Shown here: positions 329-27,560 of the stretch, in pieces
How the letters are laid out: the number at the start of each line of letters is the position of its first letter
Position numbering within the stretch: position 1 is the stretch's first letter
Assembly (NCBI RefSeq): GCF_900155545.1
Contig: NZ_LT732526.1
Location: 1,740,593 to 1,791,621 of the forward strand
DNA: 51,029 bases
Direction: 5' to 3'
Source: Clostridium sp. Marseille-P2415
Lineage (GTDB): Bacteria; Bacillota; Clostridia; Lachnospirales; Lachnospiraceae
Translations under genes and position numbers: made by a program
The notes under the pieces: model-generated
Databases searched by the model: none
What the model was told of the DNA's origin: nothing
The model's input: the letters and a program-made list of their open reading frames with translations, nothing else

Positions 329-1633
329 TCAGGCCATAAATCCAAACACAATGCTGGCCAGCAGCAGGATAATCGCACCTCCGATACGCGATGAGATCTG
401 AGCGTAGCTCATAAGATTCATTCTTTTGCCGGCACCTAAAACCTGAAGGTCCCCGGATCCGCCGCGGTTAGCCATACAGAGCCCGGCAGTAATGGCTGAT
501 TCCACAAAGTTAAACCCGAACAACATTCCCATTGCTCCAGATCCGATAATCGCACCGAATACTACAAATGCGCAAATCACCAATGTCTGCCAGTTAAGTA
601 CTGCCAGGAAATCTGCCAGATCTGTGAATGCGATACCGATGCCAAACATGCAATAACACATAAGCGGCTTTGTAAAGAAATTCGATAATTTCTTTACACC
701 TTCCTTAATTTCAATGGGAACGATATTGGAAACGTTTAGAATCGCCGTAATTACAACCATATAAGCATACATGTGTAAAGATACAGGACCAATAGCCGGA
801 AGTATATTCTCAGAAAATACCAATGAAACCACAAAAATCGCTCCTGCAAGTAAAAGGCCTCCAGCCATTTCAAATTGGCTGATCTTAGGTTTTTCCTGGC
901 TGTCCTCAACCAATACATACTTTTCCGGATTCTTTAATAATTCCCCTTTTCCGGAAAGCTTTGGAATTTTTTCTCCCAATGAATTAAGTAAAACTGCTCC
1001 GATAATAGCAAAGTTGTTTGCAATATTTAAAATGGCAAAAGCCTTTGAATAGTATGCATCCTTTCCCAATCCAGTACTTGCCTCCCACATCTCAGACAAT
1101 GGGATAGCTCCGGCTCCGTTTCCGCCTCCCATAGTTGGAAGTACATAATAGGCGACCACTTCCTTGATATTGACGCCGCAGATAACGGCACCTATCATGC
1201 CAAAGACAGCTGCTGCAGCGATACCACCAAAAATAGCTGGAATGTAACCACTAAAAGCCTTAATAAGCTGCTTACGGTTTACAGCCAACACCGCCGACAC
1301 AATTAACAGTGTAATGAATACTGTCTGGAAACCAAAATCATCATAGTAAAACGTAATCGCCTCTGAATACCTGGCCGGAAGGATCTGAAAGTATTCCAAC
1401 ACAGCCGCGCCAAAAAATGCCATAACCGCACCACCGCCCAGAAAATCCTTCCAGACAGGCAGACGCTCACCGATTTCAAAAAGCAGCAATCCCCCGGCAA
1501 ACATGATAATTATAATAGTTAACATATCCTGGTCCGGCAGAAGCTCCATATAGGTCGCCCCATAAATCAGCAGCAGGCAGACAGTTATCAGCCAGATTGG
1601 CATTCCATAATACTTCTTCTTTAATATTTCCAT
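329..1633 (-). CDS. 2-hydroxycarboxylate transporter family (CitS/CitN type) sodium symporter
   Basis: A 434-residue, very hydrophobic membrane protein with the two signature regions of the 2HCT family. A GGNGAGAIP reentrant-loop motif lies at about 170-178. The second half contains NRGGSGDLQVLGAGKRMN followed by YAQISSRIGG, with a conserved arginine at about 416 equivalent to the citrate-contacting arginine of CitS. Length is normal for the family. Characterised members import citrate, malate or related hydroxy-acids with sodium or by exchange. The gene starts 30 bases after the YbhJ-like hydratase, so it ends a three-gene operon with two aconitase-type enzymes. This points to a tricarboxylate substrate, but which one cannot be read from sequence. 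Parts of two further family members occur as remnants at 11315-11550 and 14181-14399. Confidence 0.92.
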   Translation of the reverse strand: MEILKKKYYGMPIWLITVCLLLIYGATYMELLPDQDMLTIIIIMFAGGLLLFEIGERLPVWKDFLGGGAVMAFFGAAVLEYFQILPARYSEAITFYYDDFGFQTVFITLLIVSAVLAVNRKQLIKAFSGYIPAIFGGIAAAAVFGMIGAVICGVNIKEVVAYYVLPTMGGGNGAGAIPLSEMWEASTGLGKDAYYSKAFAILNIANNFAIIGAVLLNSLGEKIPKLSGKGELLKNPEKYVLVEDSQEKPKISQFEMAGGLLLAGAIFVVSLVFSENILPAIGPVSLHMYAYMVVITAILNVSNIVPIEIKEGVKKLSNFFTKPLMCYCMFGIGIAFTDLADFLAVLNWQTLVICAFVVFGAIIGSGAMGMLFGFNFVESAITAGLCMANRGGSGDLQVLGAGKRMNLMSYAQISSRIGGAIILLLASIVFGFMA

Positions 1634-1663
1634 AATAATTTACCCCACTTTTTTGCCCATAAT

Positions 1664-3904
1664 TTAATTTGTAGTTTTATAATAATTAATCAGACATCCC
1701 GAGAGCACAATTTCTTTTTCTACCTCTGTCATAACTCCCACGGAACAGGAATAAACCTTTCCGCTGCCATCCATAACCCTGAGAGAAATCCTGTCTCCTC
1801 CTTTCCTTACTTTTTCCCTTACATTTTCTATAAATAAATATGTACCATTCGGAATGTCGAGCTTCTCGTCGGTCTGTAATGGCAGGATTCCCCAATTAAT
1901 CAGGTTGGAACGGTAGCGTTTCGTGGAATAGGCATTAGCAAGATTAGCAAAACCACCCAAAACCTTCTGACAGCTGGCCGCCTGCTCTCTGGAGGAGCCA
2001 TCCCCGATTTCCTGGGAAACCATAATGCTTCCGATTGTAATATCCTTAAGAGTACAGCCGGTATCACTGCAGATTTCCCGGATAATCCGGGCACATTCTT
2101 CATCCGATACAGTCCCCTTCTTCGTAAGCTCCCCGCTTAAATTTCTTACCTGCTTTGCCCTCCCCACATATTCCGGGTCACGGCTGATCATGGTATATTC
2201 TGAAATTTTCTCAGGGTTAGAACGGTAAGAGGAGGCATCCCCGGAAGGAATCAGCTCGTCCGTGGTAACAGAACCCTCATAGGAGCCCGCCACTTTTAAA
2301 AGCAAATGCCTGCCCATAGGAACCATTTCCGGCCAGTCTGCAATATTGGGGCCCATCCGTAAAACATAATCCGGGTTTTCATGTCCGAAATTATCGTAAA
2401 CCTGTTTCTCATAAACCTCCGGATCATATTCATACTCCGGATACGTATAGGTTACATCCAGCTCTGTTGCTGCGGTAAGATACCCGTTATTACGTACCGT
2501 TGCCGCAACGGAGCGGGCATCCATGAGGATGGATGCAGCCATCTGTCCCTGCCCGGGCTTAGAGCCCTCACGGTTCGGATAATTTCTTGTGGTATGACGG
2601 ATGCTTAAACTGTTGTCGGCAGGCACATCAGTCACTCCAAAGCATGGACCGCATATGCAGGGGCGTATAGTCGCGCCGGACAATATAAGACGGTTTAAAA
2701 TTCCTTGTTTCATCAAGGCCAGATTTACCGGCTGGCTGGAGGGATTAATACCGATTCCAGTCTGGCTGCCCCCTATATGATAGCCATCCAAAATATCTGC
2801 CATAGCTGCAATGTTCTCAAACATGCCGCCTGCGCATCCGCTGACCAAAGCCTGATCCACCCGCAGATTTCCTTCCTCCAGATGGTCCATAATGGAGAAT
2901 TTTTTTCCTTTTTCACCTTTGATGAGGTTCCCTTCCTCTTCCACAGCCTTTAAATATTTTTCCGGATTTTTTTTGAATTCCCGGATGGATATCACATTAC
3001 TTGGATGGAAAGGCAAGGCCATCATGGGTTCTACTTTGGAAAGGTCAATCTCAATCATCCCATCATAATAAGCTACACCCGAAGGTTCCAGCTTTTTATA
3101 TGAATCCTCTCTCTTATGTATTTTCAGATATTCCCTTACCATTTCGTCTGTACACCAGATACTGGAAAGTGCTGCACTCTCCGTGGTCATCACATCAATT
3201 CCCATGCGGAATTCCACACTTAAATTTTTGATTCCCTCTCCCAGAAATTCTAAAATTTTATTTTTGTTAAATCCATTCTTAAAGGTAGCACCTACCAATA
3301 CCAGAGCCACATCCATGGGACCTACTCCATCTCTTGGCTTTCCCGTAAGCTTCACCGCCAGTACCGGCGGCTTCGGTATATCGTATGTTTTTCCGAGAAG
3401 CTGCTTGACCACCTCTCCGCCGCCTTCACCAATTCCCATGGTACCGAGGGCTCCGTATCGTGTATGGCTGTCGGAACCGAGAATCATCCCACCGCATGAA
3501 GCCATGCGCTCCCTCATGTATTGGTGCAGTACCCCCCGGTAAGGAGGCAGAAAAATACCACCATACCTTTTTACGTTATCCAGGCCGAATACATGGTCAT
3601 CTTCATTAATAGTCCCTCCTACTGCGCAAAGGGTATGATGGCAGTTGGACAATACATACGGTACCGGAAATTTCTTCAGACCGCTGGCCCTGGCCGTCTG
3701 AAGGATATTCACGTAATTATTATCCGGGGATACCAGCGAATCAAATGTTAATTTTAAATTCTTCCTATCAGCACTATGGTTATGGCTGCTTAATATCTGA
3801 TCGGATATTGTATTTTTTTCTGCTTCCTCACGGCTGATGGAAGGGGATTTTACCATACTGCCGGCCGGTGATAAAAATACGCCTGTTTCTGTTAACTGAA
3901 TCAT
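1664..3904 (-). CDS. YbhJ-like aconitase-superfamily hydratase
   Basis: A 746-residue protein resembling Escherichia coli YbhJ, an aconitase-superfamily hydratase of unsettled substrate (about 750 residues). The three cysteines expected to hold a 4Fe-4S cluster are visible: C357 in SGCAGG, and C418 and C421 in CICGPCFG. The substrate-loop motif GSDSHTRYG is at about 143-151. A C-terminal swivelling domain follows, with GDGSSREQAA in place of the more usual GSSREHAA. The start has a GAGGTG ribosome binding site. The gene lies 40 bases after a canonical aconitase and 30 bases before a citrate-type transporter. Two different hydratases in one operon suggest either successive hydration/dehydration steps or a second substrate. 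The exact reaction is unknown. Confidence 0.85.
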   Translation of the reverse strand: MIQLTETGVFLSPAGSMVKSPSISREEAEKNTISDQILSSHNHSADRKNLKLTFDSLVSPDNNYVNILQTARASGLKKFPVPYVLSNCHHTLCAVGGTINEDDHVFGLDNVKRYGGIFLPPYRGVLHQYMRERMASCGGMILGSDSHTRYGALGTMGIGEGGGEVVKQLLGKTYDIPKPPVLAVKLTGKPRDGVGPMDVALVLVGATFKNGFNKNKILEFLGEGIKNLSVEFRMGIDVMTTESAALSSIWCTDEMVREYLKIHKREDSYKKLEPSGVAYYDGMIEIDLSKVEPMMALPFHPSNVISIREFKKNPEKYLKAVEEEGNLIKGEKGKKFSIMDHLEEGNLRVDQALVSGCAGGMFENIAAMADILDGYHIGGSQTGIGINPSSQPVNLALMKQGILNRLILSGATIRPCICGPCFGVTDVPADNSLSIRHTTRNYPNREGSKPGQGQMAASILMDARSVAATVRNNGYLTAATELDVTYTYPEYEYDPEVYEKQVYDNFGHENPDYVLRMGPNIADWPEMVPMGRHLLLKVAGSYEGSVTTDELIPSGDASSYRSNPEKISEYTMISRDPEYVGRAKQVRNLSGELTKKGTVSDEECARIIREICSDTGCTLKDITIGSIMVSQEIGDGSSREQAASCQKVLGGFANLANAYSTKRYRSNLINWGILPLQTDEKLDIPNGTYLFIENVREKVRKGGDRISLRVMDGSGKVYSCSVGVMTEVEKEIVLSGCLINYYKTTN

Positions 3905-3944
3905 GTGTTCACCTCTATCTATTTACCGCACTAATGAGTACAAT

Positions 3945-5894
3945 CTATGCCTGCACGGATACTTTGGATTTTATGTAAGCCAGCTGTCCGCCTTTTAACA
4001 GAATCTCCACTTCCGTATCCGATAAATCGAGTCTCGTCATGAAGGACGTTCCTCTTGTCTTATTCTCCACAGCCACTCTTTTCTCCTTCATCCCGTCCAG
4101 AAGATTGTGGATTTCAATTTCATCCCCCAGATGAATCGCATCATAATCAGATGGATTTTCGAATAGCATGGGAATGACGCCATGGTTAATCAGGTTATTT
4201 TTATGGATACGGGCCAGACTCTTTACGATCACAGCCTTGACCCCCAGGAACATGGGCGTAATTGCCGCATGCTCTCTCGAGGAACCCTGTCCATAATTCT
4301 CTCCGCCCACTATGACAGAGGTCTTCATTTCCTTGGCCCGGCCCACAAAATCCTTATCATAACGGCTATAAGCATACTCTGCAATAAGCGGTATATTGGA
4401 ACGCATGGAGGAAAACTGCGCATTGGCCGGGGTGATATCGTCTGTGGTCACATTGTCACCAGCCTTTAAGCTCACCTTTGCATGAAGTTCCTGTGTGGGA
4501 GCCGTATTGATGGGAAGAGGTTTGATGTTAGGGCCGCGTATGATTTCCACATCACTGCCATCCTCAAGGGGCTTTATGATCATGCTGTCATCCACCGGAT
4601 ATTCCGGCGCTTCTTTGATATCAGCCAGAACAGATACATCATCCATCACTTCTTTTGCCTCACAGATATATCCTTTGACCGCGCATGCAGCGGCCACCTC
4701 CGGACTTGCCAGATACAGAGACGCATCTGCTGTGCCCCCTCTTCCCGGAAAGTTCCGGTTGGAGGTTCTGACCGATACTCCCTTTGTTGCAGGTGCCTGG
4801 CCAATACCTGTACATGCTCCGCAGGCAATCTCTGTTATACGCACACCAGAATCGATTAAATCCTCAATGATTCCCTCCCTAAGCAGTTTCTTAAATATCT
4901 GTCTTGTGGAAACAGCACAGGTACAGGATACATCTTCATGGACCTTCTTTCCTTTCAGCACAGCTGCCGCCTTCCTGATATCTGCATAGGATGCATTGGT
5001 ACAGCTTCCTATGAAAACCTGCTGTACTTTCACACCTTGGCACTCAGATACCGGGCGCACCTGGTCAGGCTGGCTGGGACACGCAACAAGCGGCGTCAGC
5101 TCACTTAAGTTGATCGTCATTTCTTCGTCATATTCAGCGTCCTCATCCGGCAGAAGCTCAGTAAATTCATCCGCACGGCCCTGGGATTCAAAGAAACGCT
5201 TCACTGCGTCATCCGCCGGAAATATGGAGCTGGTAGCACCCAGCTCAGCTCCCATATTCGTAATAGTAGCCCTCTCCGGCACTTCCAGACTCTTTACTCC
5301 CTCGCCCACGTATTCGAAGATTTTTCCCAGACCACCCTTAACACTTAAACGCCTGAGCATTTCCAGAATAATGTCTTTCGCCGCTGCCCCCGGTTCCAAA
5401 TGCCCGATCAGATTGACCTTCACTATCTTTGGCATTTTCAGCCGGAAGGGCATTCCTGCCATGGCCGTTGCCACATCCATGCCTCCGGCTCCAATGGAAA
5501 GCATGCCGATTCCTCCGGCCGTGGTGGTATGGCTGTCAGATCCAATAATCGTCTTTCCCGGAATACCAAACCTTGCATAGTGAACAGAATGGCATATTCC
5601 ATTTCCAGGCCTGGACAGATACACCCCATATTTTTTAGCGATGGACTGAAGAAAAATATGATCATCCGGTGTCTTATTATCTACATACAAAAGATTATGG
5701 TCAAGATAGCTGACGCTGCATTCTGTCCTGACTTTGGGAAGGTCCAATGCCTCAAATGCCAGATAAGCCATGACCGCCGTAATATCATGTGTCAGTGTAT
5801 GATCCATTTTCAGATAAATTTCTTCCTCCACAGCCATCCCGGCATCCTTAACCAGATGGTTTTTAATAATCTTTTTGGACAGATTCATTCCCAT
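3945..5894 (-). CDS. Aconitate hydratase, short (about 650-residue) type
   Basis: A 649-residue aconitase of the compact clostridial/Aquifex-like kind. The iron-sulfur ligands are C298 in IGSCTNASY, and C358 and C361 in CGACTGIG. The substrate loop GSDSHTTTAGG is at about 118-128. The C-terminal domain carries GGENYGQGSSREHAA with the catalytic serine-arginine pair. It interconverts citrate, cis-aconitate and isocitrate or close analogues. The start at 5894 has GGAGG nine bases upstream. It is the first gene of the aconitase/hydratase/transporter operon, and the operator-like block at 5972-6032 lies about 90 bases upstream. A role as a homoaconitase or methylaconitase-type enzyme is possible given the PrpF-like isomerase nearby. 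Confidence 0.92.
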   Translation of the reverse strand: MGMNLSKKIIKNHLVKDAGMAVEEEIYLKMDHTLTHDITAVMAYLAFEALDLPKVRTECSVSYLDHNLLYVDNKTPDDHIFLQSIAKKYGVYLSRPGNGICHSVHYARFGIPGKTIIGSDSHTTTAGGIGMLSIGAGGMDVATAMAGMPFRLKMPKIVKVNLIGHLEPGAAAKDIILEMLRRLSVKGGLGKIFEYVGEGVKSLEVPERATITNMGAELGATSSIFPADDAVKRFFESQGRADEFTELLPDEDAEYDEEMTINLSELTPLVACPSQPDQVRPVSECQGVKVQQVFIGSCTNASYADIRKAAAVLKGKKVHEDVSCTCAVSTRQIFKKLLREGIIEDLIDSGVRITEIACGACTGIGQAPATKGVSVRTSNRNFPGRGGTADASLYLASPEVAAACAVKGYICEAKEVMDDVSVLADIKEAPEYPVDDSMIIKPLEDGSDVEIIRGPNIKPLPINTAPTQELHAKVSLKAGDNVTTDDITPANAQFSSMRSNIPLIAEYAYSRYDKDFVGRAKEMKTSVIVGGENYGQGSSREHAAITPMFLGVKAVIVKSLARIHKNNLINHGVIPMLFENPSDYDAIHLGDEIEIHNLLDGMKEKRVAVENKTRGTSFMTRLDLSDTEVEILLKGGQLAYIKSKVSVQA

Positions 5895-5971
5895 TGTCCA
5901 TATCCTCCGATCTTCTCCTCATTTGTTGCAACAGCCCTTGTTATAAGGGACTTTTTGCTTGTTGTTAAAAT

Positions 5972-6032
5972 TATATCATTAAAACTGATATAGGAAAAAT
6001 ATATATATTTATATGTTTATTATAGGTTTTTT
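5972..6032 (-). promoter_or_regulatory. Operator-like block upstream of the aconitase operon
   Basis: It contains ATATAGGAAAAATATAT (5988-6004, plus-strand reading), six bases, then ATATGTTT...ATAGG plus a T run (6011-6032). An identical 17-mer with the same spacing occurs at 11241-11285, upstream of the dehydrogenase operon. An overlapping inverted repeat, TATATCA-N7-TGATATA, is at 5972-5992. The layout fits a LysR recognition plus activation site. The regulator is inferred, not shown. Confidence 0.65.
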
Positions 6033-6085
6033 TGTATGGTTTAACAGACATATCAAATGCTTCCCGTTTCGGCAGATAAGAAGTA

Positions 6086-6125
6086 AATTAAAAAAAGCAG
6101 TCCTCCTAACATGCAGGACTGCTTT
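6086..6125 (-). terminator. Rho-independent terminator of the dehydrogenase-to-aldolase operon
   Basis: An AAAGCAGTCCT/AGGACTGCTTT stem of 11 pairs with a 10-base loop. On the minus strand it is followed by a run of seven or more T. It lies directly after the aldolase stop codon. Confidence 0.9.
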
Positions 6126-6147
6126 CCCATCTATTAACCAATGGGAT

Positions 6148-6783
6148 TTAAGGCCGTTTTTTATAATATCCTCCTGTCAAAAACTCCCTGACCATCTCCG
6201 GCTCTACCTCCTTCAATGAAAAACCTCCCATTCTGGAAAGAACATTCATCCGGCAGACCTGTTCCGTTATCTCAAGCGCAGTCAATGCCTCCTTCAGGTT
6301 TGTATCATAGGCCAGTAATCCATGGTTTCCCATGAGGATTATATTTGTTCTGTCCGCCACTTCAGCGACCGCATCTGCCAGCCCCTTACTCCCTGCATGG
6401 AAATATGGTACGGAAAGAATATTGGCATCATAATACATGGATTCTATAAAAAGGTTTGTTTTTAACGGAATATCAGAACAAGCGCAAAGAGTTCCAAAAA
6501 ATGGGGAACTATGTACGATTCCTCCCACGTCAGGGCGTTTCCGGTATACCTGCAGATGCATTCCTGTCTCCTTGGAAGGTTTTCTGGTTCCCTCTGCCTG
6601 ATTCCCCTCCAAATCACAAACAATGATATCATCCTCAGTCAGACTTCCCATCACTGTTCCGCTGGCAGTAATCCATACCCTGTCACCGTGCCTGAGGCTT
6701 ATATTCCCTGAAGTCCCCCAGGTAAGCCCTTTATCCATGATTCCCTGTCCCGCCTCTATAATCTGCTGTTTCAATTGGTCCAT
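6148..6783 (-). CDS. Class II aldolase/decarboxylase (FucA/AraD/OtnC superfamily)
   Basis: A 211-residue zinc-dependent aldolase-fold protein. Visible motifs are TSGNISLR (phosphate-binding loop, about 24-31), ITASGT (38-43) and the late metal histidine H154 in GNHGLLAYD. The usual H-x-H metal pair reads VHSSPFFGT: H91 is present but the second histidine is replaced by S93. GGAGG lies upstream of the ATG. It follows the OtnK-type kinase by 18 bases. In tetronate pathways that neighbour pairing means the aldolase-fold enzyme decarboxylates the phosphorylated 3-oxo-acid. By inference it cleaves or decarboxylates the phosphorylated product here; the true substrate is unknown. Confidence 0.85.
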   Translation of the reverse strand: MDQLKQQIIEAGQGIMDKGLTWGTSGNISLRHGDRVWITASGTVMGSLTEDDIIVCDLEGNQAEGTRKPSKETGMHLQVYRKRPDVGGIVHSSPFFGTLCACSDIPLKTNLFIESMYYDANILSVPYFHAGSKGLADAVAEVADRTNIILMGNHGLLAYDTNLKEALTALEITEQVCRMNVLSRMGGFSLKEVEPEMVREFLTGGYYKKRP

Positions 6784-6801
6784 GATCCAATACCTCCAAT
6801 T

Positions 6802-8079
6802 TTATATCATTCCTGTCATACGCAAAGCTTCCTCAAAAAATTCTTCCTGTCCAAAATTCCCGGACTTTAACACCAACCGCAAACCAGGTCGTTCCAGAGG
6901 TGTCATAATGGGCACTCCGGGAGCCACGCTCTCTCCTATGAGATAGGAGCTGCATCCCAAAGCCTTTGTAATAGCGCCGGAAGTTTCCCCTCCGGCAGAA
7001 ATAATACGTGCGAAGCCCTCTTCCACTGCTTTTACGGCCAAAGCAGCAAGCGCCTCCTCAATTTTACCAGCCGCGTTTTCTTCCCCCAATTTTTGATTTT
7101 CCCGGAGTTCCTCCGGAGGTGCAGAGCTGTAGATCAGCGGAGTTTCTTTTTGCTCCCTGATCCATTCCCAAATACGGCTCACCCCTTCCTCCCCGGATAA
7201 CAGTTTTTGAGGATAGATCCGGTAACAGGGCTTCCCTGTACGTTTATAAGCCTCTATCTGCTTTAAAGTAATGGCAGAACAGCTTCCTGCCAGCAACAGG
7301 GCTTTTCCTTTTACCTTTTCTGTATGACGATTCGAAGTACCGGTTAAAGTACGCTTCGCCAGATGTCTTCCCAAGGCTCCTGCAAGGCCGGAACCGCCGG
7401 TGAACAGCTCCAGCGTCCCAAAGCGTTCTGCTATCAAATCTCCGTGCCCATCCTGGTAATAATCCGGTATCAGATATGCATGGCCCTTTTCTTCTGCTAA
7501 TTCTTCCATTCTCTGCTTCAGGCAGCTGAAGGCCTTTTGGTCCTCCAACATGGGGATTTCTGCCAAAACACATGGATATTTCCCCTGCTGCCTCATTAAC
7601 CCCTCTATGCTGTCGTCCCACATAGGAGTGAGGGGATGATCCTTCATATGGCTTTTATGCAGGGGTATCCCATCTACCAAAAGCCTCCCTCCCTTTACAG
7701 TCCTTCCATTCACCGGCAGGGAAGGGCAAAGAAGTGTGTACGGTATGCGAAAGTACTCCATCACGGCATCTGTTACCGGACCAATATTTCCCTGTCTGGT
7801 AGAATCAAACGTAGAACAATACTTAAAATAAAATTTTTCCGCCCCGGCCTGTTTCAGCCATTCAAAAGCACGTATGGACTGTTCAACCGCTTCCTTTACC
7901 GGTTCTGTCCTGCTTTTCAAAGCAATGACCATTGCTTGTATGCTGCCGTCATCCTCCATTTTTTTCTGGGGAATTCCATTTAACAGAATAGTCTTAAGCC
8001 CTGCCTTTACCAGAAAGGAAGCTGCATCTGACGCCCCCGTAAAATCATCTGCCACACATCCCAAAAGTAATTTTTCCAA
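6802..8079 (-). CDS. Four-carbon acid sugar kinase (OtnK/DUF1537 family)
   Basis: A 425-residue kinase. The N-terminal substrate domain shows VADDFTGASDAASFL (about 9-23), KYCSTFDSTRQGNIGP and MKDHPLTPMWDDS. The C-terminal nucleotide-binding domain shows SAGGETSGAITKAL and PGVPI. Members phosphorylate D- or L-threonate, erythronate or 3-oxo-tetronates with ATP. Translation starts at a TTG, with the ribosome binding site AGAGGGGG embedded in the last codons of the preceding racemase gene, suggesting translational coupling. The aldolase follows after 18 bases. Finding this kinase in an aconitase/isocitrate-dehydrogenase-like setting rather than beside PdxA2 or LtnD is unusual. Confidence 0.88.
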   Translation of the reverse strand: MEKLLLGCVADDFTGASDAASFLVKAGLKTILLNGIPQKKMEDDGSIQAMVIALKSRTEPVKEAVEQSIRAFEWLKQAGAEKFYFKYCSTFDSTRQGNIGPVTDAVMEYFRIPYTLLCPSLPVNGRTVKGGRLLVDGIPLHKSHMKDHPLTPMWDDSIEGLMRQQGKYPCVLAEIPMLEDQKAFSCLKQRMEELAEEKGHAYLIPDYYQDGHGDLIAERFGTLELFTGGSGLAGALGRHLAKRTLTGTSNRHTEKVKGKALLLAGSCSAITLKQIEAYKRTGKPCYRIYPQKLLSGEEGVSRIWEWIREQKETPLIYSSAPPEELRENQKLGEENAAGKIEEALAALAVKAVEEGFARIISAGGETSGAITKALGCSSYLIGESVAPGVPIMTPLERPGLRLVLKSGNFGQEEFFEEALRMTGMI

Positions 8080-8085
8080 AATGAA

Positions 8086-8748
8086 TTACCCCCTCTCCTG
8101 CATCGCCTCTTTGATAGCCCGGTATGCACTGTCTGGGCTGGTGTACAATTTTGCGTGGTTCAATTTTACGCCGGCAGCAGCCTGCGACATGGAAATCTGA
8201 GCCAGCACAATTTGATCATACTGTCCATCCAGCTCCCTTACTTTGTTCTGTATGATACTGTCGCATTCCTTAAATCTTCCTCGCTGCATCGCCTCATAAG
8301 CATCGGAAAGTACATGCATATCCACTCGTTCAGGCCTCTGATATTTACGGCAATACGAAAAATACATTTCCCTGGTCGTATTGACTGTTCCCTCAAAGGT
8401 ACAGAGAATAGCAGTTTTCCCTCCATTCCATGCTGCACGGTCCAGCATAGCTCCATCCGGACATATGACAGGCTTAGACAATAAAGCGGAAAAGTGCTCT
8501 GCATATGGAGAAAAAATGGTACAAGTCATCAGGATACCGTCCGCCCCATCTTCGCAGGCAGTTGCCAGCATCTGGAACATCCTTTTCATGGAGGAATCAT
8601 TCATGCCGCCATCCTCTCTCACCTTTTGCAGCAGGTAACTATCCAGATAATTACGGATTTCTATTGGTTCTTCCTGTTGATTCAGAAAATCTGTCATAGG
8701 GTTCACCGCATTTAAAGTTACGCTTACAAGTGCTATTTTCTTCTTCAT
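8086..8748 (-). CDS. Aspartate/glutamate racemase-family protein
   Basis: About 220 residues from the chosen ATG at 8748, preceded by AAGGATGG. A longer in-frame start at 8805 lacks a good site. The family's two-cysteine pattern is visible: TCTIFSPY in the N-terminal half and AILCTFEGTVNTTREMY in the second. Relatives include amino-acid racemases, hydantoin racemase, maleate isomerase and arylmalonate decarboxylase, so the sequence alone does not fix a reaction. Between a PrpF-type isomerase and a kinase of hydroxy-acids, it more likely acts on a dicarboxylate or hydroxy-acid than on an amino acid. Confidence 0.8.
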   Translation of the reverse strand: MKKKIALVSVTLNAVNPMTDFLNQQEEPIEIRNYLDSYLLQKVREDGGMNDSSMKRMFQMLATACEDGADGILMTCTIFSPYAEHFSALLSKPVICPDGAMLDRAAWNGGKTAILCTFEGTVNTTREMYFSYCRKYQRPERVDMHVLSDAYEAMQRGRFKECDSIIQNKVRELDGQYDQIVLAQISMSQAAAGVKLNHAKLYTSPDSAYRAIKEAMQERG

Positions 8749-8837
8749 CTTGCCATCCTTTCCAATAAGAAGTACAGGGCAGGTGAAGCATTCCTTCTGC
8801 CTCATCTGCCCTGCGTTTATTTAGGATATCTCCTGGT

Positions 8838-9974
8838 TTAATTTCTGATATAAACCGTACCATCCATAATCCGCCTTGCCGTGCGCTGGACAGCCACGCC
8901 GTTAAGTTTTATCCCGCCCTTTTCCTCAACGAAGTCAGGATACATGGTCATGATCCCACTCGGATGCCCGATTTTCACATAACCATTGCTGTTAAAAGGC
9001 AGCCCCAGGGTTTTCTCAATAATACTGCCCTTGAGCTGAGCCGCCACGGAAATGGAGCTGGCTGAAGTGAGGGGACAGGCCTTATGACACTTAAACACAG
9101 AGATGACTCTGGCACAGATGTCCATATCCTCTGCCCGAATCCGCTCGCCTCCTATGTCCGTAAAAGAAGAAGGCCTGGTGAAGAAGCCGACTTTTGGAAC
9201 TGCCGGGCTGTTGGCTTTCGCATCCTCAAGATCTTTTGCAAATCCCATCATACAGCAAGCGGTCCCTCTGATCTTCTCAAGAAGCTCGCAAGCCTGCTCA
9301 TTCCTGTTCACCTCTTCCGGCAGCTCTGCTCCTGTCAATCCAATATCCTCAGCCCTCACAAGTACCATAGGGTTTGATACATCCAGAATACTGGCTTCGA
9401 TGACACCAAAACCGGGAATTTCCAGCACATCCAGCACATTTCCCGTTGGAAGCAGCTTTCCGGTTTTCGCTCCGGCAGGATTTAAAAAGTTTACTTTCAG
9501 CTCCGCAGCTGTACCGTCCACACCTGCAATATGACAATCGCCTTCCTGTGCAAATGTCCCGTTCTCGCAGGGCACCTCTATATTGATGTACTTATCCGTA
9601 TTCCTGTTAAGCATCCTCACTGTGGTGACCGGCCCGTTTCCCTGCACCATCCCTTCCTCGATCGCAAAGGGACCTACAGCAGCTGTCATATTACCGCAAT
9701 TGCTTTTGTAATCCACCTGGCTCTTACCTACAATAACCTGGCCCACCAGGTACTCTATATCCACATCTTTTTCATCGCTCTTCCATACGATCACAATCTT
9801 GTTATTGGATGATACCGTACCTCCCAGGCCATCAATCTGTTTCGGATCCGGATCGCCCATTGCCTGCAAAAAAATGGAGTCCCATTCATTTCTGTCCTCT
9901 GGAAGATCCTCCTTCCGGAACATGCAGCCTTTGCTGGTACCGCCTCTCATGAACACTGTCTTGAATTTTCTCAA
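8838..9974 (-). CDS. PrpF-family proton-shuffling isomerase (methylaconitate/oxalomesaconate/aconitate isomerase type)
   Basis: A 378-residue member of the PrpF family (diaminopimelate-epimerase-like fold). Signatures are MRGGTSKG near the N-terminus, DGLGG at about 48-52, the catalytic-type cysteine C93 in SNCGNMTAAVGPFAIEEG, and a second cysteine in HKACPLTSASS. Known members isomerise 2-methylaconitate (PrpF), 4-oxalomesaconate (GalD) or aconitate between double-bond isomers. Translation begins at a TTG with GAGGAGGGGG upstream, 16 bases after the dehydrogenase gene. With two aconitases and a tricarboxylate carrier nearby, trans-aconitate or a substituted aconitate is an attractive substrate, by inference. 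Confidence 0.88.
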   Translation of the reverse strand: MRKFKTVFMRGGTSKGCMFRKEDLPEDRNEWDSIFLQAMGDPDPKQIDGLGGTVSSNNKIVIVWKSDEKDVDIEYLVGQVIVGKSQVDYKSNCGNMTAAVGPFAIEEGMVQGNGPVTTVRMLNRNTDKYINIEVPCENGTFAQEGDCHIAGVDGTAAELKVNFLNPAGAKTGKLLPTGNVLDVLEIPGFGVIEASILDVSNPMVLVRAEDIGLTGAELPEEVNRNEQACELLEKIRGTACCMMGFAKDLEDAKANSPAVPKVGFFTRPSSFTDIGGERIRAEDMDICARVISVFKCHKACPLTSASSISVAAQLKGSIIEKTLGLPFNSNGYVKIGHPSGIMTMYPDFVEEKGGIKLNGVAVQRTARRIMDGTVYIRN

Positions 9975-9989
9975 TTCTGTCCCCCTCCT

Positions 9990-11159
9990 CTATCTGATCT
10001 TATCAATGGTTTCCAGAAGATAATCTGTAAACGCTTCCGCACTTGCTCCGTCCTTGTCTGTGGTTATTACCTTCTTGCGTTCTGTTATGGTACATACATC
10101 CAGCGCCTTATCCAGGATATTTTTTCTATCTGCGTAACCGATATGGGACATCATCATCCCTACCGCACGGATCAGGCTGCATGGATCCGCATAGTCCCCG
10201 CGTCCATGGTCAATGAGGAAAGGAGCGGTTCCGTGAATAGCTTCAAACATGGCATATCTGTTACCCAGGTTGGAAGAAGAAGCAGTTCCCAGTCCTCCCT
10301 GATGTTCCGCAGCCACATCTGTTACAATGTCTCCATAGAGATTAGGAAGTACAATCACTTCAATGCCCTTATTGAACTCCGGATCCAGCATCTTAGCACA
10401 CATAGCGTCTACCAGGCGTTCCTGGATTTCGATTTCAGGATATTCTTCCCCAACCTTTCGGACTGCTTTGATGAAATTACCGTCTGCCAGCTTCACAATA
10501 TTGGCTTTTGTAACAATCGTCACATTCTTCTTTCCATTCTTTCTTGCGAATTCAAACGCAGCCCGTGCAATGCGTTCGCTTCCCTGCTTGGTCTGCACCT
10601 TGAAATCTACCGCCAGATCCGCATTTACCTGTATTCCTTTATTTCCCCATATGTACTCGCCTTCAATGTTCTCCCGGAAAAAAGTCCAGTCAATGTTCTT
10701 GTCCGGAATGCGGATGGGACGCACTGCTGCAAACAATTCCAGACCCCGGCGCAGCAAACTGTTCGCACTGATTAAATTAGGCCATGGATCAGATGCCCTT
10801 GGTGTCACCATCGGTCCTTTTAAAAGTACATTACACTTCTTCACTTCTTCAAATACTTCATCGGGAAGGCTCTTAAGCTTAGCAGCTCTGTTCTCAATGG
10901 TCATGCCTTCAATCATCCGTAATTCCAGATGCCCTGATTTTATCTCTGTCTCCATAAGGCGGTTAAGTACCCGCAGAGCCTGTTTCATGATAATCGGACC
11001 AATGCCGTCTCCCGGCAGTATTCCAACTATGATTTTATCTAATTTATCAAAATCCGTAATATTCGTGTCAGCTTTCATGCGCTCAATTCGTTCATACTCT
11101 GATTGGATCAGTTCACCGAATTTTTCTTGTGCTGCTGTGATATGATTATCAAAACTCAT
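9990..11159 (-). CDS. Isocitrate/isopropylmalate-type oxidative decarboxylase
   Basis: A 389-residue dehydrogenase of the IDH/IPMDH/tartrate-dehydrogenase family. It has GILPGDGIGP (about 46-55), the substrate loop SANSLLRRGLELFAAVRP, FRENIEGEY, the metal-binding aspartates in LYGDIVTDVAAE, and the nucleotide-loop region FEAIHGTAPF. These enzymes oxidise a 2-hydroxy-acid and remove the beta-carboxyl group. The aconitase neighbours favour isocitrate or a homologue, but malate, tartrate and homoisocitrate dehydrogenases share the fold. It is the first gene of a five-gene operon, with GGAGAAAAGAG before the ATG. The shared operator-like block lies about 80 bases upstream. Confidence 0.88.
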   Translation of the reverse strand: MSFDNHITAAQEKFGELIQSEYERIERMKADTNITDFDKLDKIIVGILPGDGIGPIIMKQALRVLNRLMETEIKSGHLELRMIEGMTIENRAAKLKSLPDEVFEEVKKCNVLLKGPMVTPRASDPWPNLISANSLLRRGLELFAAVRPIRIPDKNIDWTFFRENIEGEYIWGNKGIQVNADLAVDFKVQTKQGSERIARAAFEFARKNGKKNVTIVTKANIVKLADGNFIKAVRKVGEEYPEIEIQERLVDAMCAKMLDPEFNKGIEVIVLPNLYGDIVTDVAAEHQGGLGTASSSNLGNRYAMFEAIHGTAPFLIDHGRGDYADPCSLIRAVGMMMSHIGYADRKNILDKALDVCTITERKKVITTDKDGASAEAFTDYLLETIDKIR

Positions 11160-11240
11160 CTCTTTTCTCCTTTTTCCTTTTGAATTTTAATGTATGGCAT
11201 GTTATCTGCTTTTTATACAATAATTATAACACTTCAAATT

Positions 11241-11285
11241 ATATAGGAAAAATATATCTTTTAATATGTTTTCCATAGGCTTTTT
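11241..11285 (-). promoter_or_regulatory. Operator-like block upstream of the dehydrogenase operon
   Basis: ATATAGGAAAAATATAT at 11241-11257 is identical to 5988-6004. It is followed after six bases by ATATGTTTTCCATAGG and a T-rich tail, matching 6011-6032 in order and spacing. This is the best evidence that the two operons are co-regulated. Confidence 0.65.
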
Positions 11286-11314: not shown

Positions 11315-11550
11315 TTATTTCAGGAAAGAAAAGGCCAAACTTCCAATGAGAAGTATCATGGCTCCTCCAATTCTGGAAGATATCTGAGCATAGCTGATTA
11401 AATTCATGCGCTTAGCAGCACCCAGAACAGCCAAATCTCCCGCTCCGCCCATGTTTGACATGCATAGCCCAGCTGTTATGGCGCTTTCAATTGGATGAAA
11501 TCCCACAATCCAGCCGAAACAGGCAGACCCAATGCCCCCTCCTAATTACT
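11315..11550 (-). pseudogene. C-terminal remnant of a second 2-hydroxycarboxylate transporter
   Basis: The reading frame gives about 78 residues aligning with the end of the intact transporter at 329-1633. It keeps NMGGAGDLAVLGAAKRMN and YAQISSRIGGA. Homology begins just after an in-frame stop near 11551, with no ATG at an appropriate place. The N-terminal 350 or so residues are missing. Immediately upstream lies the broken end of a LysR gene on the same strand, so a deletion has joined the two. A short peptide could start at 11506 but would not be a working transporter. Confidence 0.8.
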
Positions 11551-11596
11551 TTCCGGTCCCATCCACCGGCTCAGTATGGACCCTTGGCATTGCCTA

Positions 11597-11914
11597 TCAT
11601 CCGAACAAATATGTAACAAAAGCCATCCCTATGGTGATGACACCCTTTCTGCTGTCCACAATATCACGTATATTTTCTTTCATCCTGCAGTCAAGCCCCA
11701 ATATCATTTTGGCTGTTTCTATGTACACCTCTCCAGCAGGAGTTAAGGAAATAGGAGTGGTTCCCTGGTTAAAAATTAAAGCTCCCAGTTCTTCCTCTAT
11801 TTTCGCTATATAATGACTTAAAGACGGCTGAGTTATGTAAAGCTCCTCTGCCGCCTTTGTAATACTTTTCAGCTCTGCAACCTTAAGCACATACTGATAC
11901 TGTTTCAGCTCCAT
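11597..11914 (-). pseudogene. LysR-family regulator, truncated after the DNA-binding domain
   Basis: The 105 codons hold a complete LysR helix-turn-helix (SITKAAEELYITQPSLSHYIAKIEEELG) and linker helix, then stop shortly after KGVITIG, where the effector domain should begin. LysR proteins are normally about 300 residues. The remainder is replaced by the tail of a transporter gene (11315-11550). It resembles the LysR at 1-214. The product could still bind DNA as a short protein and might act as a competitor, but it reads primarily as a deletion product. Confidence 0.8.
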
Positions 11915-11941
11915 CGAGCCCCCTCCAATGTACTCTGACTT

Positions 11942-12568
11942 TTATCCCTTCTTGTTCCACTTTATTCTGGTAATCACACAACCTGTACGCTCCATTTCCT
12001 CCACTACTTTCTTCTGAGCAGCAACCTTGCGCTCCGTACGTTCCAGGATGTCCCCGGCCTCCTCCGGTCTTATGACACATACTCCGTTCATATCTCCGGC
12101 TATGATATCTCCCGGACGGATAATAATACCTCCACAGCTCACAGGCACATTAATCTGTCCTACTCCGCTTTTACCGGCAGTTCCGCAGGTAAGCCCCTTG
12201 GCATACACAGGGAATCCCACCTCTTCACATCCTTCTAAGTCTCTGAAGGCTCCATCCACAACAACACCCTCTGCCTTCATCATTCTGGCACAGTAACTTC
12301 TATGATCCCCCCAGTAAGAGCTTTTTAAATTCCCCTTCCCGGCAATTACAATCACGTCTCCCTCTTTAACCATTTCAATTGCATCTGCCACAATTCCGCC
12401 TTCCCCAGCAGGTACATTCACTGTCAAAGCAAACCCAATAATTTTTTTTCTTCCTATCCATGGTTTTATCTGGCAATCCATAGCTTCAAATACTTCCATA
12501 CCATCACACAGTTCCGGAACTGTATATTGTGATATTCTCTTCAATAAGATCCTCTTGCTGTCTTCCAT
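11942..12568 (-). CDS. RraA-like aldolase/decarboxylase (4-hydroxy-4-methyl-2-oxoglutarate aldolase family)
   Basis: 208 residues matching the RraA/HMG-aldolase fold. WGDHRSYCARMMKAEGVVVDG is followed by the active-site pair R109-D110 in GAFRDLEG, and the C-terminal part has GDIIAGDMNGVCVI. Catalytic members cleave 4-hydroxy-4-carboxy-2-oxo-acids such as 4-carboxy-4-hydroxy-2-oxoadipate to pyruvate plus a keto-acid, or decarboxylate oxaloacetate. RraA itself inhibits RNase E, but the retained R-D pair and catabolic context favour an enzyme. It lies downstream of the AEC carrier and carries its own copy of the shared operator-like block 54 bases upstream. It thus probably belongs to the same regulon as the PrpF-type isomerase. 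Confidence 0.82.
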   Translation of the reverse strand: MEDSKRILLKRISQYTVPELCDGMEVFEAMDCQIKPWIGRKKIIGFALTVNVPAGEGGIVADAIEMVKEGDVIVIAGKGNLKSSYWGDHRSYCARMMKAEGVVVDGAFRDLEGCEEVGFPVYAKGLTCGTAGKSGVGQINVPVSCGGIIIRPGDIIAGDMNGVCVIRPEEAGDILERTERKVAAQKKVVEEMERTGCVITRIKWNKKG

Positions 12569-12609
12569 TTTCTATGTTTCCTTTCTGACACTTTCTCAAT
12601 ATAATTATA

Positions 12610-12664
12610 ATAGTACTTGTACTATAAGTAAAATATATAGTTATTATAATTCCCATAAGTTTTT
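12610..12664 (-). promoter_or_regulatory. Third copy of the operator-like block, upstream of the RraA-like gene
   Basis: CTATAAGTAAAATATAT at 12622-12638 matches 14 of 17 positions of the motif at 5988 and 11241. A CCATAAG-plus-T-run element follows at nearly the same spacing (12644-12664). Overlapping it is a perfect inverted repeat, ATAGTAC-TT-GTACTAT (12610-12625). Confidence 0.5.
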
Positions 12665-12687: not shown

Positions 12688-13599
12688 TTAATGAAGGATC
12701 AGACACCAGACCGGTATAGTAATCATGGATAGTAAAGTAGACGAAACCACGCCTTTTGCTGCAAACACTGCATCACACTTATATTTCGCTGCAAGTATGG
12801 CAGTTACACTGGCTGCCGGCATGCCTGCCAGCACTACGGATACCCCAGTCACCACCGGCTCCAGACGAAATCCCAGACACAACAGATATATAAGGCCGGG
12901 GATCAATACAAGACGGATAAGAGAATAATATATCGTAACACGATTCCATAAAGAACGAAAACGAACCCCTGCTAAAATGCTTCCAATAAACAACATAGAC
13001 AACGCCGTATTAGCGGAAGCCAGGGTTTTCACAGTCTGTTCCGCCACAGAAGGAAGCCTGATTCCTGTAACCATCAGTACCATTCCTACTGCCACTGCCA
13101 AAATACAGGGATGAGTTGCTATTTTTTTCAAAAGTGTTTTTCTGTCCGGACTTTCTGTGAAATAGGCAAGCCCCGCAGACCACATGAATATCCGCTGCGG
13201 AATAAGATAAATCGATGCATACAAAAGTCCAAGGGAGCCAAATATGCTCTCCGCGATCGGATTGCCAAGTATTCCTGCATTGGAGCAGATTGTGGCATAT
13301 TGAAGGACGTTCCTGCGCCTTTTTTCCATTCCCGGATAAAGAATAAAGCTCAATATATAAGTTCCGGCCTGTATCCCTACAGCCACAACAAGTATGACCA
13401 TGCAGTTCACCAGAATTTTCTGGTTAAACTCTATCTCAAAGGAACGGATAATGCTGCATGGAAGTGTTACATAAATTACCAGGTCTGTCAAAAGCCCCTC
13501 ATTCTTCTCTTCTACGATTCCCATCTTTTTTAACAGCAATCCCAGAATCATTAAGCTGAATAACATACCCTGCATCTCAAACAAACGCTCAAAGCTCAT
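12688..13599 (-). CDS. AEC (auxin efflux carrier) family transporter
   Basis: 303 residues with about ten hydrophobic segments and the family's characteristic central feature CSNAGILGNPIAESIFG, plus the repeat-like LAGMPAASVTAILAAKY near the C-terminus. Bacterial members such as MleP and MdcF carry malate, malonate or other carboxylates. It lies upstream of the RraA-like aldolase on the same strand, suggesting import or export of a carboxylate handled by that enzyme. GGAGAAATT precedes the ATG. The 120-base gap before the aldolase contains that gene's own operator-like block, so the two may be separately expressed. Confidence 0.85.
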   Translation of the reverse strand: MSFERLFEMQGMLFSLMILGLLLKKMGIVEEKNEGLLTDLVIYVTLPCSIIRSFEIEFNQKILVNCMVILVVAVGIQAGTYILSFILYPGMEKRRRNVLQYATICSNAGILGNPIAESIFGSLGLLYASIYLIPQRIFMWSAGLAYFTESPDRKTLLKKIATHPCILAVAVGMVLMVTGIRLPSVAEQTVKTLASANTALSMLFIGSILAGVRFRSLWNRVTIYYSLIRLVLIPGLIYLLCLGFRLEPVVTGVSVVLAGMPAASVTAILAAKYKCDAVFAAKGVVSSTLLSMITIPVWCLILH

Positions 13600-13749
13600 A
13601 ATTTCTCCAATCTTATTTCAGCCCAAATATTGTGCCATACTCATTCTTTCAGATATGTTTTTTAATCAGTAACTGCATCAATAAGTTTAAACACAGAGCG
13701 AACCGCAGCCATTTTAAAAGTGGATACATTGATTATAAAGATTTATAAA

Positions 13750-13766
13750 CATAATGTAAAATATAT
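13750..13766 (-). promoter_or_regulatory. Weak fourth copy of the operator-like motif, upstream of the AEC carrier
   Basis: CATAATGTAAAATATAT shares 13 of 17 positions with the copy at 12622 but only the right half with the copies at 5988 and 11241. It lies 150 bases upstream of the AEC start. The rest of 13600-13858 is AT-rich, with no gene that I can see. Confidence 0.35.
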
Positions 13767-26261: not shown

Positions 26262-27560
26262 CTACGCATAGAGATTGTAATACCTCTTGGGATATGCCAG
26301 CGGATAATAATCCAGCATCTGCTTAAATTCCTCCCAATTGTAGCTTTTCTTCTGACTCCTTCGATTCATCCAGCGGTATAACAGGCGCGTTGTGTAATAG
26401 TGATACTTCATCAGCGATGGTATGTTATACGTCACACCGTAGTATCTGTAGTGTCCAACCAGCTTACGATTAAGGATCAGCATTATCTCTTTTAATGGCT
26501 TTGTTCGATTGTTCTTCAGCCACTGTTTCATCTCCTTCAGTTTTGTCCGCATTCGTTTCCCGTTGGTTTTCGGTATCACACAGAACTTTCCCTCCTGGTT
26601 TTCTCCGCAATAGAATGTAAATCCCAAGAAATCAAAGGTCTCGGGTTTTCCCTCCCCTTTTCGCTTTCTTCTTTCTTTCGCATATCTCCCGAATTCTACA
26701 AGTCTGCTTTTACTCGTCTCTAGTTCCAACCCATATTTACACAGCCGTATCTGCATCTCTTCGTAGTATCGTTTGGCTTCCCCCTTATGTTCAAAGCCTG
26801 CCAGGTAATCATCTGCATACACTACCAGAAAACTCATTCCCGTTCCGCGTTTCTCAAAGTATGCTTTGTACCACAACACCAGCACATGGTGCATGTAGAT
26901 ATTTGCCAATATCGGACTGATGATATTTCCTTGGGCGGATCCCCATTCATTCGTCTGATACCTCCCTTCTTCCAGCACTCCTGCTTTCAGATACTTCTTT
27001 ATCAGCCAGAGTATGTTCGGGTCTTTGATGTAGTATTCAACGAACTTCATTGTCCATTCGTGACTCATATGGTCGAAGAAACCTTTGATATCTGCATCTA
27101 CAACATAGTTGATACGCTTTCGCACGATACTGATACACATTTCTTTGATTGCCATATGACAGTCGCGTTTCGGCCGGAATCCGTACATGTTCTCCTGAAA
27201 CTTTGGTTCATATACCGCTTCCAATATCTTCTTTAGTCCTAATTGCACAATTTTATCTTCATAGACTGCAATACCCAGTGGACGCTTCTTTCCATTTGCT
27301 TTCGGTATATACACCCGCAGGGTCGGTTTCGGCTTATATGCCTTGTTCCTAAGTCTTTTCACCAGATTTCTGATGTTTTCTCTTAAGTTTTGGCTGTATT
27401 CCTCTTTTGTTATTCCATCGACTCCTGTTGCTTTCTTTCCGTCTAATTCTTTATGGCATTGAAGCAATAGTTCCTCATTCAGCAAGTGATACAGTGATGT
27501 AAATACCGGTCGGCTTTCATGAGCCGATTTGTCTGCTATTCTTTCTAATTTCGTTTGCAT
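26262..27560 (-). CDS. ltrA: Group II intron reverse transcriptase/maturase
   Basis: 432 residues. RT blocks are visible in order: KKATGVDGITKEEY, RVYIPKANGKKRPLGIAVYEDKIVQ, MYGFRPKRDCHMAI, DADIKGFFDHM, GSAQGNIISPILANIYMHHVL, and the active site VYADDYLAGFE. TFDFLGFTFY and the maturase X domain then end the protein. There is no HNH endonuclease domain, so mobility would rely on RNA-driven insertion at replication forks or single strands. The frame is intact, so the intron may be active. Confidence 0.92.
   Translation of the reverse strand: MQTKLERIADKSAHESRPVFTSLYHLLNEELLLQCHKELDGKKATGVDGITKEEYSQNLRENIRNLVKRLRNKAYKPKPTLRVYIPKANGKKRPLGIAVYEDKIVQLGLKKILEAVYEPKFQENMYGFRPKRDCHMAIKEMCISIVRKRINYVVDADIKGFFDHMSHEWTMKFVEYYIKDPNILWLIKKYLKAGVLEEGRYQTNEWGSAQGNIISPILANIYMHHVLVLWYKAYFEKRGTGMSFLVVYADDYLAGFEHKGEAKRYYEEMQIRLCKYGLELETSKSRLVEFGRYAKERRKRKGEGKPETFDFLGFTFYCGENQEGKFCVIPKTNGKRMRTKLKEMKQWLKNNRTKPLKEIMLILNRKLVGHYRYYGVTYNIPSLMKYHYYTTRLLYRWMNRRSQKKSYNWEEFKQMLDYYPLAYPKRYYNLYA

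Follow-up and report, generated by a model that had tools for sequence, protein, structure and literature searches.

Citrate fermentation uses CitS and citrate lyase. In the trans-aconitate systems tarA/tarB and tbrA/tbrB, as described in the available part of the source, the gene for a PrpF-superfamily isomerase adjoins a transporter gene (PMC11495376). The E. coli ybhH-ybhI-ybhJ region combines a PrpF-type protein, YbhH, with a hydratase, YbhJ, and a LysR gene (PMC9068703, accessible portion). L-threonate is processed by the LtnD-OtnI-OtnK-OtnC pathway, and a three-step tetronate route that does without OtnI, using an F_bP_aldolase-type OtnC, exists as well (accessible portion of PMC12540250). 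Here we analyze a gene cluster with likenesses to each of these systems. It lies in a 51,029-nucleotide stretch of the 5.25-Mb genome of the gut-type bacterium Clostridium sp. Marseille-P2415 (the window; G000:C9:1740593-1791621). The combination of genes is real and recurrent, and is a variant of the known systems. We put at about an even chance the reading that the cluster is a composite, co-regulated island for plant hydroxy acids, in which a tricarboxylate branch stands beside a variant four-carbon (C4) sugar-acid branch leading to dihydroxyacetone phosphate (DHAP).

An earlier note, made from sequence alone, had named seven enzyme families in bp 329–11159. The open reading frame (ORF) list and profile scores bear this out: all seven are there as full-length minus-strand ORFs. 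The gene order on that strand is IDH-PrpF-Race-Kin-AldII, a terminator, and Acn1-YbhJ-CitS. IDH (bp 9990–11159; PF00180) is an isocitrate dehydrogenase-family enzyme of a distinct subfamily, PrpF (bp 8838–9974; PF04303, 401.6 bits) a double-bond isomerase of that family, Race (bp 8086–8805) an Asp/Glu racemase-like protein, Kin (bp 6802–8079) a DUF1537 protein matching the 3-oxo-tetronate kinase OtnK, and AldII (bp 6148–6783; PF00596, 143.9 bits) a class II aldolase. The gaps between the five are 15, 32, 6 and 18 nt, all on one strand. The 253 nt between AldII and Acn1 contain an intrinsic terminator (minus strand, about bp 6123–6090; 9-bp stem, 10-nt loop, T run), which was read by eye and which an automated scan with a loop limit of 8 does not list. 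Thus, the cluster comprises two transcription units. From the tight gaps and the terminator, IDH and PrpF are most likely co-transcribed with Kin and AldII, and a second unit consists of the two hydratases and the transporter. These are Acn1, an aconitate hydratase (bp 3945–5894; NF005558/PRK07229, 894 bits against a cut-off of 612); YbhJ, an aconitase-family hydratase (bp 1664–3904; NF008503/PRK11413, 1032 bits, cut-off 641); and CitS, a 2-hydroxycarboxylate transporter (2HCT; bp 329–1633; PF03390, 438 bits). CitS scores 496 bits with the specific CitS model NF047943, under its cut-off of 600, and falls within the wider 2HCT family. Two upstream minus-strand genes belong with the cluster: one for an RraA/HMG-aldolase-like protein (bp 11942–12568; PF03737, 125.8 bits) and one for an AEC-type transporter of the membrane transport protein family (bp 12688–13599; PF03547, 119 bits; TIGR00946, 88 bits, under the cut-off of 246).

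The Race-Kin-AldII module is the part that resembles the L-threonate pathway. By profile and residue conservation, Kin is a clear 3-oxo-tetronate kinase. The window copy scores 447 bits with NF043035 (OtnK), and copies from two related loci, L146 and L016, score 425 and 433, so that all three tested exceed the cut-off of 350. Window Kin retains 125 of the 131 residues that are invariant among six classical family members, and 108 of the 131 are present in all five complete kinases of the core loci described below. The product of a 3-oxo-tetronate kinase is the 4-phosphate (PMC12540250, accessible portion). A CH2OH end is therefore expected on the substrate of Kin.

Alignments place AldII in a rare subfamily of the class II aldolases, one whose metal motif is altered. 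It falls under the cut-off of each NCBIfam model listed and is 27–32% identical to the partner aldolases of four classical kinases. In six of six copies H[ST]S replaces HxH, that is, the second His is lost; the seven other class II aldolases aligned with it all have HTH. AldII also has a new His, within PY[FY]HAGS, and a YYKK tail. Race, the true start of which may be bp 8748 rather than the annotated 8805, scores 29.2 bits with PF01177, just short of Pfam's 31 and hence below the mark for an Asp/Glu racemase, and has no match in the PDB. Of what we take to be the catalytic Cys pair of that superfamily, Race has one, with Gln at the other position: TCT is found in six of six copies spanning the first site, and LAQ at the second in seven of seven aligned copies. 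OtnI is not found over its cut-off of 325 in any of 11 genomes (best 130.6 bits), and is found over it in one of 14 controls. The 11 include five classical-kinase genomes, which fail as well; the model may therefore be overly strict for this family. A TIM-barrel protein next to the window was considered as the OtnI and rejected (58 bits; its best match is IolO, 172 bits, cut-off 300). Compared with the L-threonate pathway as given in the accessible part of PMC12540250, the likeness lies in an OtnK-equivalog kinase, a class II aldolase-family partner and the expected DHAP product. The differences are the altered aldolase motif, the lack of an OtnI over cut-off, the presence instead of Race and IDH-family enzymes, and the setting of the module within a tricarboxylate locus.

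The remaining enzymes appear to be of the tricarboxylate type, as the earlier note had proposed. An alignment of 60 IDH rows, from which rows of <45% identity or <340 residues were excluded, has S131, N133, R137, R147, R162 and Y169 in 60/60. These are presumably the isocitrate-binding residues. The cofactor loop, assigned on the same presumption, reads AP[YF]L in 58/60 rows, with neither D-I nor K-Y, i.e., it is no known NAD or NADP loop; the best NCBIfam IDH equivalog score is 232 bits, short of the 509 cut-off. PrpF aligns with 3g7k, SoPrpF and YbhH, the best structure match being 3g7k, a 3-methylitaconate isomerase. Both catalytic residues are retained, in that K59 and C93 align with K73 and C107 of SoPrpF. 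Gallate-type ring cleavage requires oxygen, which counts against a gallate-type 4-oxalomesaconate (OMA) route through RraA, PrpF and YbhJ; that candidate was rejected, the OMA tautomerase model giving 323 bits against a cut-off of 440. Known aconitate isomerases are found in the PrpF family (PMC11495376 and PMC5690661, in the parts accessible).

A further part of the picture lies outside the window. No citrate lyase was seen inside it, in agreement with the earlier note, but citrate lyase genes are present 7–9 kb beyond its left edge in the same genome, so that the apparent absence is due to that edge. The left flank (L147) holds, 4 to 14 kb from the edge, a second YbhJ (50% identity), citE-like, citF and citG-like genes, IDH2L (a second isocitrate-type dehydrogenase), Ldh2 (a malate/lactate-type dehydrogenase) and the TIM-barrel protein. 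The scores are 659 bits for citF (cut-off 501), 366 for citE-like (443) and 270.5 for citG-like (272.3). In a scan seeded on IDH, which gave 68 loci, CitE homologues are present at 7 loci and CitF homologues at 8. The citF, citE-like and citG-like genes, with the 2HCT transporter, make the locus resemble a citrate fermentation locus, from which it differs by the extra isomerases, the IDH enzymes, the kinase module and a need for RraA as oxaloacetate decarboxylase. Against the tar system of PMC11495376 (available part), the transporter is of the 2HCT type instead of the MFS type of tarB, aconitase, IDH and kinase genes are added, and the isomerase is a predicted one. The ybh region also has another transporter, and the accessible portion of PMC9068703 names no kinase, aldolase, racemase or IDH there. 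Literature searches, with subscription journals mostly outside their coverage, turned up, among the titles listed (at most 8 to 25 per search), no description that we recognised of this gene combination.

For the two-branch island, computation establishes the gene content, the recurrent co-location, the promoter-operator held in common and the conserved residues of the kinase and IDH. On top of these we infer all substrates, the plant origin of the acids, the order of the steps and what Race, RraA, Ldh2 and AldII do, as follows. The tricarboxylate branch is proposed because of the enzyme families and the citrate lyase next door. Citrate-type acids would be imported by CitS; PrpF would convert trans- to cis-aconitate or perform a similar shift; the YbhJ and Acn1 hydratases would interconvert aconitate, citrate and isocitrate; and IDH would turn isocitrate into 2-oxoglutarate. 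The neighbouring citrate lyase, with RraA as oxaloacetate decarboxylase, may provide a fermentative outlet. The C4 branch is proposed because of Kin. An acid-sugar precursor would be oxidised either by IDH2X, a further IDH-family enzyme found in some genomes, or by IDH2L-Ldh2-TIM in others, including the source genome. Race would then move the keto group, Kin would yield 3-oxo-tetronate 4-phosphate, and AldII would release DHAP and CO2.

The combination recurs in relatives. Six core loci are considered: the window, L016, L019, L050 and L058, which were reached via IDH, and L146, reached via the kinase. An AldII scan of seven chosen genomes found copies of 60–68% identity in G1107 (L016), G1108 (L019), G1110 (L050) and G1113 (L058), and none of the subfamily in the genomes of L046, L015 and L065; given that choice of genomes, the six copies are a lower bound. 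Kin is adjacent to AldII in all six, and Race is in each genome. Acn1, IDH, YbhJ and RraA share the locus with AldII, directly in five cases and by inference across a contig break in G1113. Just past the L050 locus (L162), IDH2X is followed by AldII and Kin, and in L016, IDH2L-Ldh2-TIM lies upstream of Race-CitS-AldII-Kin (L163). G1113 contig L164 carries LysRk, the LysR gene that accompanies the module in relatives, and IDH2L-Ldh2-TIM-IDH2X-AldII-Kin. It seems to begin where L058 ends, within the same LysR gene, the two being treated as one locus because of an overlap of five bases and because the LysR gene continues in frame; Race is on a different contig. Across the six genomes, IDH2X occurs in four and Ldh2 with TIM and IDH2L in three, so that each has at least one and one has both. 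The isocitrate signature is absent from IDH2X (4/4) and present in IDH2L (4/4). L046 has, at 11400–12501, a deletion remnant that runs from the 5′ end of LysR into the 3′ end of Kin, followed by a shortened Race beside IDH.

Searches over broader sets gave little more. At E 1e-40, AldII finds the window copy alone among 391 class and 392 order genomes, samples that overlap and in which G033, a genome with the module, was not a hit. An IDH2X orthologue was found in 1 of 387 family genomes, with two more at 39–40% identity. Of 397 family genomes, 2 have Race at ≥61% and 39 more only at 19–30%, and in the genus nothing exceeds 29% besides the window copy. A kinase search of 200 family genomes gave seven other genomes with a kinase at 48–55% identity, the neighbourhoods of which were read for about 1.5 kb per side. 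Only G033 has the module; the genes there, all pointing the same way, are PrpF, LysRk, IDH2X, AldII, Kin, a nitroreductase-like gene, Race, Acn1, RraA, IDH and YbhJ. In five of the others an HTH-type aldolase adjoins the kinase, and in the last, on a short contig, the kinase stands alone. That just one of seven carries the module tells against the single pathway that the earlier note suggested for all the families.

A quick tree of the 60 IDH rows puts the six core loci at six places, and its well-supported branches force six changes. When labels were shuffled, 500 of 500 shuffles were as low, i.e., the core-locus label is not clustered. Either the module met IDH loci repeatedly or it was lost often. 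The tree bears on the proposal that IDH and Acn1 merely serve glutamate synthesis, with the remaining genes as chance neighbours. Many loci indeed have Acn1 and IDH without the rest in view, but the six separate co-locations, the operator shared by the units (see below), the tight one-strand spacing from IDH to AldII and the existence of other PF00180 genes elsewhere in the source genome all speak against chance, and we consider that proposal very unlikely.

The neighbourhoods of IDH were counted at 68 loci (66 of the scan loci plus the window and L146; L067, L068 and L147 were dropped). Within 10 kb of IDH, Acn1 is found at 47, YbhJ at 29, PrpF at 29 and RraA at 18; AEC homologues occur at 16. 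A variant locus, seen in L021, L029 and L030, has DUF6282, a MatC-like carrier, CitS, PrpF, YbhJ2 and IDH, with no Acn1 in view. L038, L040 and L146 are IDH loci that encode a lactonase-type protein together with a carrier of the MatC type; the first two also have citrate lyase homologues. Association was tested at the 34 of 68 loci with 5 kb on each side, L058 being included despite a shorter right flank. With relatedness and multiple testing ignored, RraA is at 6/6 core versus 8/28 other IDH loci (p 0.002), YbhJ at 6/6 versus 12/28 (p 0.02), Acn1 at 6/6 versus 19/28 (p 0.16) and PrpF at 4/6 versus 15/28 (p 0.67). These p-values should be discounted for the seeding on IDH, for relatedness and for the number of tests made. 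PrpF thus has no specific tie to the kinase module.

These counts bear on whether there is one route or two. In a single linear route, a branched hydroxymethyl polycarboxylate, e.g., 2-C-(hydroxymethyl)tartrate, would be rearranged by hydratase and PrpF and oxidised and decarboxylated by an IDH-family enzyme to 2-oxo-tetronate; Race would give 3-oxo-tetronate, and Kin and AldII DHAP. The single tight unit from IDH to AldII, the ties of the module to RraA and YbhJ, the further IDH-family gene, distinct from IDH, that all 6 genomes have within or close to the module, and the lack of the isocitrate signature in all four IDH2X copies fit such a route. But IDH itself has the isocitrate-type site, Kin is visible in the fetched flanks of just 2 of the 68 IDH-scan loci (two more emerged when neighbouring DNA was read), and the presence of LysRk at four loci points to a signal of its own. 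We know of no common natural acid of the required kind. The route is, on balance, rather unlikely. The same doubt attaches to its fuller form, a pathway, so far undescribed and under a citrate-type operator, that takes one branched hydroxy-polycarboxylate to DHAP through an IDH-family dehydrogenase, Race, Kin and AldII, and to the corollary, which we would hold only tentatively, that one-cysteine Race replaces OtnI and that the AldII metal site was rebuilt from H[ST]S and the new His of PY[FY]HAGS. The hydroxymethyl group is missing from citrate-type acids and would be made by no cluster enzyme; for this reason we favour two branches, at even chances, over one doubtful route. The single path suggested in the earlier note, by which a tricarboxylate would end as a phosphorylated C4 acid, is not supported on that point, as no enzyme of the cluster would convert a carboxylate to CH2OH. 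Hydroxycitrate as single substrate, worked out on paper, was also set aside: it fits IDH and the hydratases and leaves the kinase without a primary hydroxyl.

The two branches of the favoured island would be tied together by a promoter-operator that the two units share. A stretch of some 77 nt is common to the regions 5′ of IDH and Acn1 (local score 80, versus a maximum of 57 in 2000 shuffles), and an identical 17-mer precedes both genes. A motif of ATRTATTTTACYTAT, 14 nt and TATAAT also precedes IDH, Acn1 and RraA in relatives. A position weight matrix (PWM) was built from 36 sites in relatives, the window excluded; they came from regions 5′ of IDH, Acn1 and RraA that were already similar to the motif. 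The 51-kb window has four matches above 20 bits, all at the cluster locus and on the minus strand: 5′ of Acn1-YbhJ-CitS (bp 5970–6004, 23.5 bits), IDH-PrpF-Race-Kin-AldII (bp 11223–11257, 24.4 bits), RraA (bp 12604–12638, 31.0 bits) and AEC (bp 13732–13766, 22.2 bits). The next best match has 9.1 bits. The maximum was 19.0 bits in 100 window shuffles and 16.3 in both strands of 220 kb from 59 other loci. With core loci omitted from training, the CitS-TPR12-AldII-Kin unit of L016 has an operator match of 21.1 bits; IDH2L-Ldh2 beside the window has a weaker one, of 16.1 bits (13.5 without core loci in training). The cluster units are thus probably co-regulated in the source genome. Over the −35 region the operator reads ATRT-N7-YTAT, which is similar to the ATAA/TTAT boxes of CcpC, the citrate-responsive LysR protein that controls aconitase (PMC8514465, accessible portion); the operator likewise precedes aconitase genes. 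This is a lead only. With the CcpC model, the cut-off of which is 400, four LysR proteins of these loci reach 70 to 91 bits. The earlier note had named two outcomes that would count against it, a kinase/aldolase pair that never co-occurs with the aconitase/PrpF genes in relatives and two operons that respond to unrelated substrates. As the combination recurs and the units share a promoter-operator, neither was found.

Several observations weigh against the island reading. Co-regulation of the module is seen in two core loci; in the other four, no strong operator precedes it and the module has its own LysRk. No operator above 6 bits precedes the kinase module in L019, L162 and L164, and the best before IDH2X in L146 has only 7.7 to 10.3 bits; LysRk is upstream of the module in each of these, directly so in L019 and L146 and separated by some genes in L162 and L164. 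A PWM match of 16.5 bits lies inside YbhJ of L146 on the other strand, so that scores of about this height can be spurious. Four of the six AldII loci were reached from IDH. The loss of the OtnC-type metal ligand leaves decarboxylation by AldII to DHAP less than assured, and in the absence of an OtnI over cut-off in the 11 genomes the role of Race as isomerase is a guess. citD is not among the L147 ORFs listed (≥90 aa).

The source lineage itself adds a further point of this kind, as LysRk is truncated there and G000 has no IDH2X orthologue. Between IDH and RraA, on the minus strand, are the 5′ end of LysRk (bp 11621–11914; tblastn, 69% over 98 of 300 aa) and the 3′ end of a second CitS (bp 11321–11545; tblastn, 67% over 75 aa). 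Hence Race-Kin-AldII might be a decaying passenger, carried along by the IDH promoter with no functioning pathway to serve, after LysRk, IDH2X and part of a CitS were lost; the remnants, the missing IDH2X and the remnant state in L046 are what one would expect of it. Race, Kin and AldII are nevertheless full length with conserved motifs, and Ldh2, TIM and IDH2L lie 11–14 kb left of the window, IDH2L-Ldh2 behind the weaker operator. We regard decay as quite unlikely.

If the two-branch reading holds, the locus joins the catabolism of citrate-type acids to that of four-carbon sugar acids within a single predicted regulon of Lachnospiraceae-type bacteria, and it hints at a use of plant acids that has yet to be described. 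The rare aldolase subfamily with its altered metal motif and its one-cysteine racemase-like partner are testable enzymes, the promoter-operator motif can be used to seek the regulon in other genomes, and the locus could help assign a role to YbhJ- and YbhH-type enzymes.

Other features of the source genome are as follows. Window bp 1–2450 and the DNA directly to the left (L147 16143–18592) form an exact (100%) tandem repeat of 2,450 bp on G000:C9 that contains the YbhJ 3′ end, CitS and a LysR 5′ end; it is either a recent duplication or an assembly artefact. At G000:C8:583509-587373 (L144, L145), two PF00180 genes, which by reading look like NADP-type isocitrate dehydrogenases, lie in a tandem repeat of about 2.7 kb with 99.9–100% identity. 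L150 (G000:C9:1615000-1634000) clusters an isocitrate/isopropylmalate dehydrogenase-family enzyme, a phosphotransacylase and an acetate kinase-family protein with a 776-aa 2HCT-domain protein and an aconitase-family ORF, resembling a further hydroxy-acid fermentation. Lastly, window bp 26262–27560 encode a group II intron reverse transcriptase/maturase (TIGR04416, 334 bits, cut-off 300).

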